From IMG/VR virus record IMGVR_UViG_3300030328_002252, positions 1 through 28,586 of that record: DNA of 28,586 bases; one strand, 5' to 3'. A program made the translations under genes and the position numbers. Positions 3,723 through 5,928 of the stretch are shown here, in pieces. This DNA comes from a virus. Numbering within the stretch: position 1 is the stretch's first letter; every line of letters begins with the position of its first letter. The notes below the pieces were generated by a model. The model searched no databases. It had not been told where the DNA came from and worked only from the letters and a program-made list of their open reading frames with translations.

Positions 3723-3917
3723 TTAGTTATCTTTTATTATCGGCTCGTCATACTCCATATATTTTCTACAAGTTTCAATAGCACTTTCTAGTGTTTGAAT
3801 TTCTATGTCTAGCGTATCGCTAACGTCTCTTATATTAAGTCCATCTTTAAAACCTCTTAGCTCAGCTAACCTTTCTAATAAATCTTTAGTTGCAGAGAGT
3901 AGAGGTGCGTTAGCCAT
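3723..3917 (-). CDS. Small hypothetical protein
   Basis: 64 residues, acidic and helical. It may contain a divergent HTH (LAELRGFKDGLNIRDVSDTL followed by DIEIQTLESAIETCRKY), but the pattern is not strong enough to call it DNA-binding. Its ATG overlaps the stop of the SGNH hydrolase gene by one base (TAATG), so the two are probably translated together. Confidence 0.55.
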   Translation of the reverse strand: MANAPLLSATKDLLERLAELRGFKDGLNIRDVSDTLDIEIQTLESAIETCRKYMEYDEPIIKDN

Positions 3918-4726
3918 TACAACACACCTTTACGCCATATCCACTTATTAATGTGCTTTGCTATACGCTTTGCACCTACGTCATTCGGCTCTATCTCATT
4001 GTAATAACAGTTAGTAGACATAAATCTACGTGTATCTAGTACATCAAAGTCCATGCCAATGCTATTACTTCTATTATTTTGGTCGTTTGCTATTCTGTAC
4101 AGTCTATCGTTCCACATTGAAACAATAGATACAGCAGTATGGTCTACGCCATCAAATCTCGATGGATTGTAAGCTAAGTTACCTTCGTAAGTTGTAACTA
4201 ATAAGAACTTTCTACCACTTTGTTTTAGATTCTGAATTAATGTTTCATAAGCTAACATATACTTGTCAAGCTCTTGATTCATTAAAGCCATTGTGATATT
4301 TGTATCATCACTAATGCCTAACAAGTCCATACTTGCTAGTAAATCATTACCACCTGCACTGATAACAACTGCGTTGCTCTTGTCATTAACTTTATGCACA
4401 TTTTCTATGCAATCATAGATAGTAAAGCCGTCAACAGATTGGTCATTAACCATTTTCTTCTTGCCTTGTTGCCCACCTTCTATGCTGTCTCTGACATAAT
4501 CAACAGTAGATTTACCTGTTCTAGTGTATGCTCTGTTATCAAGAACACTATCTCCAATTAATGTTATCTTTGCGTTTTTATTAACGGGATTTTTATTGGC
4601 AAACCAACTGTTAGTAGTAATTGGCTTTGTATCAACAATTTTATTTGTTTCAACAATTTTATTACCGTCAACACTATCCCATACACTTTCGTATGGATTT
4701 GCGTCTTCATACCAATTATCAGTCAT
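3917..4726 (-). CDS. SGNH/GDSL-type hydrolase, catalytic His replaced
   Basis: 269 residues, first gene of the leftward operon. Residues 1-50 are a low-complexity lead. SGNH blocks follow: LIGDSVLDN (nucleophile S60), G100 in SVDGFT, and AGGNDLL (N127). In block V, where the family has DxxH, this protein has NEIEPND (N243, E246) followed by GAKRIAKHI, so both usual catalytic D and H are absent; my recollection is that an IEP variant recurs in some SGNH subfamilies. It may be an esterase or deacylase acting on a cell-envelope or polysaccharide ester, or a pseudo-enzyme. There is no signal peptide. A promoter lies at 4755-4785 and a ribosome site (GGAAAGGAAA) precedes the ATG. Confidence 0.75.
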   Translation of the reverse strand: MTDNWYEDANPYESVWDSVDGNKIVETNKIVDTKPITTNSWFANKNPVNKNAKITLIGDSVLDNRAYTRTGKSTVDYVRDSIEGGQQGKKKMVNDQSVDGFTIYDCIENVHKVNDKSNAVVISAGGNDLLASMDLLGISDDTNITMALMNQELDKYMLAYETLIQNLKQSGRKFLLVTTYEGNLAYNPSRFDGVDHTAVSIVSMWNDRLYRIANDQNNRSNSIGMDFDVLDTRRFMSTNCYYNEIEPNDVGAKRIAKHINKWIWRKGVL

Positions 4727-4754
4727 GTTTTCCTTTCCTAATCTGACACTACCT

Positions 4755-4785
4755 ATTGTATCATAATGTAAGTCAACATTGTCAA
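4755..4785 (-). promoter_or_regulatory. Promoter of the leftward operon
   Basis: On the minus strand a perfect -35 TTGACA (4780-4785) is followed after 19 bp by TACAAT (4755-4760), which is preceded by TGA, giving an extended -10 (TGATACAAT). Transcription would start near 4748, about 22 nt before the SGNH gene's ATG at 4726. The spacer is longer than ideal, but the extended -10 compensates. Confidence 0.65.
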
Positions 4786-4804
4786 TTTATTTATGATTTT
4801 TATA

Positions 4805-5162
4805 GATAGCTTGTAACACACAGGAGTTCCTTTTATAAGGTCGCTCAATGCAATCCTAACCCATGTGCTACAAGCTACCTACAAGTTTGGTTTAGGGCTA
4901 TTGCTAGTCCTAAGTATATTCTTGTCGGTTGCCCGACTAGACTATACACTCATAAGTAGCGTCTAACAGACAAAACTTTAACGTCCTACTTCCCTACTCC
5001 CATTCGGTGAGGTCATTGGGCAAGGACTTGAATTATCTGCTAGACGCTACTTACTTTCAGTCACTAGGTTCAACAGGGCAGTATTACCTAGCTCTTATTT
5101 ATAAGTAGCCACTCCTAACTACTCCTTACTCCTATTCAAACAAAAAAGTAATTTGTAGTTAG
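4805..5162 (-). ncRNA. Large structured RNA, no known class assigned
   Basis: No gene fits this stretch, but the minus strand folds strongly. A 22-bp uninterrupted stem pairs 5033-5054 with 4952-4973, and a 20-bp uninterrupted stem pairs 4860-4879 with 4805-4824. Seven of these pairs are G-U wobbles that become C-A mismatches on the plus strand, which fixes the RNA strand as minus. Two hairpins between them, 4914-4947 and 4892-4913, both end in GCAA, a GNRA tetraloop. Further hairpins lie at 5064-5091 (CTAGGT/ACCTAG) and 5115-5162 (CTAACTAC/GTAGTTAG). The direction matches the flanking genes, so it could be read from the promoter at 5957. The 3' side lacks a U-tract, so processing or readthrough is possible. 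It does not look like tRNA, tmRNA or RNase P RNA to my eye. Confidence 0.75.
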
Positions 5163-5220
5163 TAGCGTTTAATAAATATAACATACTTGTAATTATATGT
5201 TGTCATTATTTTAATCTTTT

Positions 5221-5928
5221 TTATATATGGAAATCGTAAGTTAATCCAATATATTTAGTCTTTTTATTTCTCTTATTTCTTGCATGATATTTAGAAACAA
5301 CTTCCTTAACTTGTTTATTCCAATTATCAGCTAGTTCTTTTTGTTCTTTTGCTTCTTTAGTATCTCCGACAGTAACTCCAAACCATCCCATTTCGCTTTC
5401 TTCAATCCAACCATCTTCTTCGGTTATAACTGAATGAAAAGATACTTTAGGTACAATTACTCTTTCATATAATTCTTCGGGCGTATAGTATTCTTTGACA
5501 ATCCTTTTACCATCAGAATCTCTTTTTACCATACCGTCATCAGCACCACCTTTTATTAGTTCATATTTTTTTACAACTAAGTTCTTAACAAGTGGGGAAT
5601 CTTTCGTGTTTTCTTTTAACAAGTCCACATCTTTATGGTCTAACTTAAACCATCCTAATGTTTGCCAAGCATACACTTTTTCTGTAGCAAGAATATCATC
5701 TAAGTTTTTAAAGATTCCATTCTCACCATATCCACGCCAACGGCCACCTTCAGAATACCAATCAAACTTATAACCACCTGTATGTTCAGAGTAAGGCATA
5801 AGTATTTCTTCAGCATGTTCTGAATGAAAAGCACTATCGTATTGAGCCATTTCTTTCGTCTTGTCATAATCTTCATTAGTTTGTACTTCGTTTTCGGGTA
5901 CAATAACTAATCCAACAAAATGCGACAT
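5221..5928 (-). CDS. Conserved phage protein of unknown function (MSHF...GGRW family)
   Basis: 235 residues. It starts MSHFVGLVIVPENE and holds FDWYSEGGRWRGYG (about residues 55-68) and ESEMGWFG (about 177-184). I recognise this combination, an N-terminal MSHF-beta strand, a WY..GGRW box and an EMGW(W/F)G box, from many phage genomes, where the protein has no assigned function. The C-terminus is lysine- and arginine-rich (KYHARNKRNKKTKYIGL). It stands alone between its own promoter (5957-5985) and the structured RNA. A ribosome site (GAAAGGACA) precedes the ATG. Confidence 0.7.
   Translation of the reverse strand: MSHFVGLVIVPENEVQTNEDYDKTKEMAQYDSAFHSEHAEEILMPYSEHTGGYKFDWYSEGGRWRGYGENGIFKNLDDILATEKVYAWQTLGWFKLDHKDVDLLKENTKDSPLVKNLVVKKYELIKGGADDGMVKRDSDGKRIVKEYYTPEELYERVIVPKVSFHSVITEEDGWIEESEMGWFGVTVGDTKEAKEQKELADNWNKQVKEVVSKYHARNKRNKKTKYIGLTYDFHI

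Follow-up and report, generated by a model that had tools for sequence, protein, structure and literature searches.

The window analysed here, the whole stretch of 28,586 nucleotides of an IMG/VR virus record (IMGVR_UViG_3300030328_002252), raises the question of whether the elaborately folded segment at 4805-5162 encodes one large RNA of a new class, as a preliminary description had proposed, and what such an RNA would do for a phage. The segment lies between two minus-strand genes (5221-5928 upstream, 3917-4726 downstream) and is free of genes as described, since no ORF of at least 60 aa overlaps it on either strand. When the reverse complement of 4700-5250 is folded, its MFE is -174.3 kcal/mol versus -117.8 ± 6.2 in 100 dinucleotide shuffles (z -9.2), none of which folds as low; the minus strand of 4740-5215 is likewise much more stable than shuffled sequence (z -9.2), a repeat of the shuffle test on 489 nt of the element gives z -9.3, and the plus strand of 4700-5250 has the weaker fold (z -5.5). 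Both uninterrupted stems described are exact, the one of 22 bp consisting of 19 Watson-Crick and 3 G-U pairs and the one of 20 bp (4860-4879/4805-4824) of 16 Watson-Crick and 4 G-U pairs, which makes up the seven wobble pairs counted initially. In the MFE structure the 20-bp stem is lengthened to 25 bp, and the two hairpins with a common GCAA loop are present between the long stems (Table 1). The element extends from about 5188, at a promoter-like block, to 4800 and therefore goes beyond the bounds first given.

Table 1. Features of the array locus in the window and of side elements in related loci.
Feature	Locus	Positions	Strand	Basis or remark
Promoter-like block GACAACATATAATTACA, TATAAT at 5197-5192	window	5188-5204	-	RNA start side; conserved in SGNH-group relatives; putative promoter
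First array hairpin	window	5108-5167	-	MFE structure
Module C1: outer X'/X stem, AGUA.GA / ACYGAA internal loop, variable inner stem, GCCCUGUU loop	window	5045-5109	-	
Arm X (divergent), 5' side of 22-bp stem	window	5033-5054	-	Alternatively pairs upstream as C1 outer stem
Module with CCTTGCCC...GAGTAGGGAAGTAGGAC core	window	4974-5032	-	Identical core in L103, other slot type
Arm X', 3' side of 22-bp stem	window	4952-4973	-	Fold and pair count
GCAA-loop hairpin A	window	4914-4947	-	MFE structure
GCAA-loop hairpin B, ACUAGCAAUAG core	window	4892-4913	-	Covaries in 8 sequences
Arm X (standard type GTAGGTAGCTTGTAGCACAT), 5' side of 25-bp stem	window	4860-4884	-	Fold and pair count
Last module GGATTGCATTGAGCGACC...AAAGGAA	window	4825-4859	-	Possible relatives in L004 and L124 (by eye only)
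Arm X' (CCTGTGTGTTACAAGCTATCTATAA), 3' side of 25-bp stem	window	4800-4824	-	Fold and pair count
Possible separate promoter of downstream gene (TTGACA, 19 nt, TACAAT)	window	4755-4785	-	Read from sequence
GDSL/SGNH-type hydrolase gene, downstream of array	window	3917-4726	-	PF00657, 27.3 bits, above cut-off
Upstream gene without clear family	window	5221-5928	-	ORF, family searches
tmRNA-like domain	L125	12095-12174	-	
tmRNA-like domain	L049	1587-1666	-	
tmRNA-like domain	L064	5418-5494	-	
tmRNA-like domain	L045	9998-10075	-	
tmRNA-like domain	L042	1042-1113	-	
tmRNA-like domain	L052	7441-7515	-	
tmRNA-like domain	L138	2334-2410	+	
tmRNA-like domain	L101	7971-8042	+	
tmRNA-like domain	L121	7054-7129	+	
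tmRNA-like domain	L110	4336-4405	+	
T-arm look-alike module	L040	3227-3370	+	Modules also in L053, L021, L039 and L048
T-arm look-alike module	L136	3651-3790	+	

Comparison with other IMG/VR sequences clarifies that both long stems consist of the constant arms of an array system and that their inner parts are variable cargo. The RNA carries two arms in alternation, X (TAGGTAGCTTGTAGCACATA) and X' (TGTGTGTTACAAGCTATCTA), with one module in the slot between X and X' and another in the slot between X' and the next X, and exact copies of the 18-base X core were found in at least 120 stretches of IMG/VR. Both arm pairs of this alternation, with exchangeable modules, are present in the window, its chain running from the first hairpin through C1, the B module enclosed by the 22-bp stem and the paired GCAA hairpins to the last module in the 25-bp stem. 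From 125 distinct arrays, deduplicated by sequence (contigs under two locus ids exist), 241 modules were cut, forming 111 families, 65 of which were seen once; the Chao1 estimate is about 243 families. Among the 47 recurrent families with neighbours, 33 adjoin different modules, C1 having 11 different neighbours on its left and 12 on its right, and nine families occur in both slot types. One same-family pair within a contig was observed versus 4.3 expected (P 0.066), which suggests, without reaching significance, a strict non-redundancy of modules per genome. The element is almost certainly a structured modular array, and it is not one fixed RNA class but one member of a modular RNA system.

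The hydrolase encoded downstream has 19 IMG/VR relatives, and the same type of element lies directly upstream of its gene in 18 of these loci, the contig of the remaining one (L019) ending short there. Fold z-scores in shuffle tests range from -3.8 to -9.3 for the window and 13 relatives. The GACAACATATAATTACA block, for which a scan found no -35 consensus, is common to this SGNH group and is situated immediately 5' of the array. In most of the relatives the array ends in a hairpin followed by a T-run, by its sequence likely an intrinsic terminator; the arrays of the window's SGNH-group relatives end with a terminator-like C1, and a terminal T-run is absent from the window's own array. As we read the sequences, a separate promoter-like stretch may precede the hydrolase gene in most relatives; the candidate in the window was missed by a promoter scan with 16-18 nt spacing. 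Array length varies from 290 to 717 nt among the relatives, modules being gained and lost, and because content, order and length of the modules differ among close relatives, the initial picture of one large fixed RNA has to be given up. The breakpoints are informative in pairs of closely related loci. In L006 and L007, one extra X-module-X'-module unit is flanked on either side by sequence of 98-99% identity, and the two matching blocks overlap within the X arm, so that the breakpoints fall inside X. L001 and L002 share 95.5% identity as far as the final base of X and can be aligned again from X', with unrelated modules in between. Whether modules are gained, lost or replaced in near-identical genomes, the breaks coincide exactly with the arms, and cassettes are very probably exchanged there. 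Recombination between direct arm copies would explain both the exchange and the single orientation of the modules.

Selection on the structure of a phage RNA, as originally supposed, is borne out by covariation in related phages, for C1 as well as for hairpin B. In 26 sequences of C1, 95% of the pair cells hold standard pairs, both sides change in 14 of 16 pairs, and 84 double-change cells were found versus 21 in shuffles, none of 500 shuffles reaching the score, in controls that ignore relatedness. When the partners are slid by one base, pairing falls to 27-38%. A covariance model of C1 gives 53 hits in 53 of 100 sources searched, at most one per locus, the window included (CM R1, 66.7 bits, E 1.4e-12), and the GCAA hairpin B recurs with exchanged stems. 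The stems of C1 change while AGUA/GAA and, in the hairpin loop, CCCUGUU stay invariant, an invariance that is partly by construction because the set was collected with a pattern fixing these motifs; AGUA.GA facing ACYGAA would be compatible with a bulged-G (sarcin-ricin-like) internal loop. Pairs between X and X' comprise 577 G-U versus 12 A-C among 3900 cells, with wobbles maintained at positions 4, 14, and 19, and pairs predicted from both strands comprise 87 G-U versus 22 A-C. In 122 of 124 arrays, and in all 30 family consensus folds, it is the sense strand that has the lower folding energy. Wobble asymmetry and sense-strand bias together argue for selection on RNA and not on DNA hairpins; the former fixes the minus strand, as had been claimed for the window, and rules out reading the element as a plus-strand RNA.

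Searches of the window with Rfam 15 identify no family at the gathering score, GOLLD, ROOL, OLE, tmRNA, RNase P and group I introns included, and with the element itself only noise is obtained at E ≤ 5. In 14 array-bearing loci the arrays match no family at the curated threshold, and at a relaxed E-value the sole non-chance match is of tmRNA type and lies outside the arrays, the other matches being chance matches to microRNAs. No CRISPR direct-repeat family scores above threshold (the best has 17.3 bits versus 45, on the plus strand and outside the element), and ARAGORN, run on the window and on 38 loci, calls neither a tRNA nor a tmRNA. DNA searches of 50,697 phage records yield no relative of the element or of the other arrays, and the SGNH protein of the window has none in the phage records either, so that no isolate or known host can be named. 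Among 84,980 prokaryote genomes the arm pattern is hit three times, each time with no second arm, and we take these hits as chance. In the open-access papers searched, no description of such arrays was found; the array system is undescribed, a single standardised, recombining format that holds more than 100 equally undescribed RNA fold families. The proposal of a new RNA class stands as far as the missing Rfam family is concerned, but a single class with one fold gives way to a chain of exchangeable modules.

Several known systems share part of this organisation. GOLLD, ROOL, and OLE are also large, elaborately folded non-coding RNAs, partly found in phages (PMC12286853), but each is a single class with a conserved fold, whereas in the arrays the arms alone are constant, the modules are exchanged, and one conserved secondary structure is not found. 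Phages are known to mimic RNA, for example with the pseudo-ToxI of phage PhiTE (PMC3475682) or with Racr RNA anti-CRISPRs (PMC10651486), which are phage-encoded structured RNA units, sometimes repeated, and provide a precedent for RNA decoys. In contrast to the arrays, whose modules are mostly unlike each other and match no known repeat, they copy one host RNA repeat; the scarcity of same-family pairs is at odds with tandem near-identical pseudoknot repeats of the ToxI kind, and the direct-repeat search is at odds with a mimic of CRISPR repeats. Integrons and CRISPR arrays likewise alternate constant repeats with variable units and turn over at the repeats, but the units of the present arrays are short folded RNAs whose arms alternate between sense and antisense, neither an integrase nor a Cas partner was identified, and their exchange is explained by the homologous arms.

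Among 50 records checked, 38 encode a terminase 53-85% identical to that of the window and represent, by this sequence measure, one unisolated phage family; the rest include fragments and other phages. For the terminase, the portal and an Mre11-like exonuclease, the closest named relatives are mainly from actinobacteriophages and, judged only by this gene affinity, the host is probably actinobacterial. The source environments are presumably mainly marine or estuarine, going by the metagenome identifiers. Arrays are on the coding strand of 96 of 118 upstream and 103 of 120 downstream neighbours, typically ending 12-36 nt before a start codon and many of them inside operons, and the adjoining protein families are mostly without assigned family. 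Two further loci, L074 (18 kb) and L094 (52 kb), have the same arrays and module families and do not encode the window's terminase; possibly they belong to a second phage group that shares host and module pool.

As a whole, these observations seem best explained by an exchangeable array of RNA ligand or decoy cassettes, an explanation that we put forward tentatively, at a little short of an even chance. The element is a cassette array of structured RNA modules from an uncultured, probably actinobacterial phage family, in which recombination between direct arm copies would shuffle the modules and keep their orientation fixed. The arms would present the modules, releasing them as free hairpins should RNase III cleave the stems, and each module might act as ligand or decoy for a host RNA-handling factor, i.e., a nuclease, toxin, modification or translation factor. 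The array would then amount to a changeable counter-defence or host-takeover kit that follows the same logic as gene islands for tail fibres or anti-defence, only in RNA form. The decoy role of the modules, taken by itself, we regard as plausible yet doubtful; it is favoured by the size and turnover of the module pool, the loop motifs of C1, the few repeated families and known phage RNA mimicry. The restriction of C1 to one copy per locus (53 hits in 53 loci) and the tmRNA-like acceptor domains encoded by several phages also speak for decoys. Against them, a location 12-36 nt ahead of a start codon would suit a cis role just as well, the predicted unpaired positions of the modules show no general excess of conservation, and in the sampled loci no known RNA that the modules might mimic was matched, apart from a gathering-level tmRNA outside the arrays.

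The main rival to a decoy library is mRNA processing or insulation, in which stems that are cut by RNase III or block exonucleases would stabilise operon mRNAs and the modules would be drifting, recombining stability domains. T7-type processing provides a precedent, the stems have a suitable 20-25 bp, and arrays lie on the coding strand. This position shortly before start codons favours processing or insulation, as does the conservation profile, predicted unpaired positions being more conserved than paired ones in only 7 of 25 module families. A general excess of conservation at unpaired module positions is thus unsupported, and C1 is a case in which unpaired positions do exceed paired ones. 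However, a simple processing hairpin would have no use for over 100 recurring inner folds, the AGUA/GAA and CCCUGUU motifs of C1 persist though its stems change, and where SGNH-group arrays end with the terminator-like C1 there is no downstream gene requiring processing, so that we judge processing or insulation rather unlikely as the main role.

A cis-regulatory switch, by which the array would flip between two conserved folds during transcription and control the next gene, draws on the ambiguity of the arms. Among the 80 X arms that are flanked by X' on both sides, 76 are able to pair with each of the two at no fewer than 7 of 8 core positions, and since X can pair with either neighbouring X', the two helices are mutually exclusive; in the window, the outer stem of C1 and the 22-bp stem use one arm and cannot form together. 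In L162 (1640-1840, plus strand), X and both adjacent X' arms carry matching changes, which makes this locus a test case for mutually exclusive helices. The location just before the ribosome binding site would suit a switch as well, but relatives whose arrays precede the same hydrolase gene carry different modules, one module occurs beside many different neighbours, and there is no link to a ligand, all of which leaves a switch decidedly improbable.

An assembly scaffold, i.e., arrays forming multimeric RNA particles like the RNA-only cages of GOLLD- or ROOL-type precedents (PMC12286853), would agree with a large, highly structured phage RNA that has GNRA loops and a possible sarcin-ricin-like internal loop, but is very improbable given that gain and loss of modules changes the array length more than twofold among relatives, unlike a fixed quaternary assembly. 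A DNA-level element, in which the inverted repeats would act as DNA hairpins in replication or packaging, as recombination hotspots or as a selfish repeat, would account for the inverted repeats and the recombination at the arms and is strongly disfavoured, to the point of being barely credible, by the excess of G-U over A-C in the arms as well as in strand-neutral pairs, the sense-strand bias, and the maintained wobbles, which weaken a DNA palindrome.

Returning to the ligand or decoy cassettes, a wider proposal is that the phage family keeps a common stock of RNA folds, probably exceeding 200, which are recombined at standard stems into arrays that bind or divert host factors. We offer this new genetic system with considerable reserve; if true, it would be the RNA counterpart of variable anti-defence gene islands and may add a new layer to the conflict between phages and abundant uncultured bacteria. 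The arrays show that RNA modules, like protein-coding cassettes, can be shuffled, and their pool is a large natural source of interchangeable domains for RNA structural biology. As modules are excisable at defined stems, a binding role lends itself to direct testing.

Ten loci of these phages encode tmRNA-like acceptor/T-arm domains of 70-80 nt, situated outside the X-X' slots (Table 1), one of which is hit by Rfam RF00023 above the gathering score. Like tmRNA (SsrA), these stand-alone domains have an acceptor stem, a T-arm, G3-U70 and a reduced D-loop, but they comprise 70-80 nt only and have neither messenger-like domain nor tag. The alanine identity pair G3-U70 is kept in 8 of 9 distinct sequences inspected, that of L110 being the exception, and the acceptor stems covary. 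Judging from these features, the domains are possibly a phage mini-tmRNA or a decoy of alanyl-tRNA synthetase or SmpB, and might themselves serve as decoys or acceptors. A module family with a tRNA T-arm look-alike (GTAGGTTCAAATCCTAC and variants) has further stems, and ARAGORN calls no tRNA in it. In L074, a recurring motif ATGTAACCTTTT...TAGTCTAAGTA precedes genes at five places between 1500 and 4300 on the plus strand and is perhaps a phage-specific promoter or leader.
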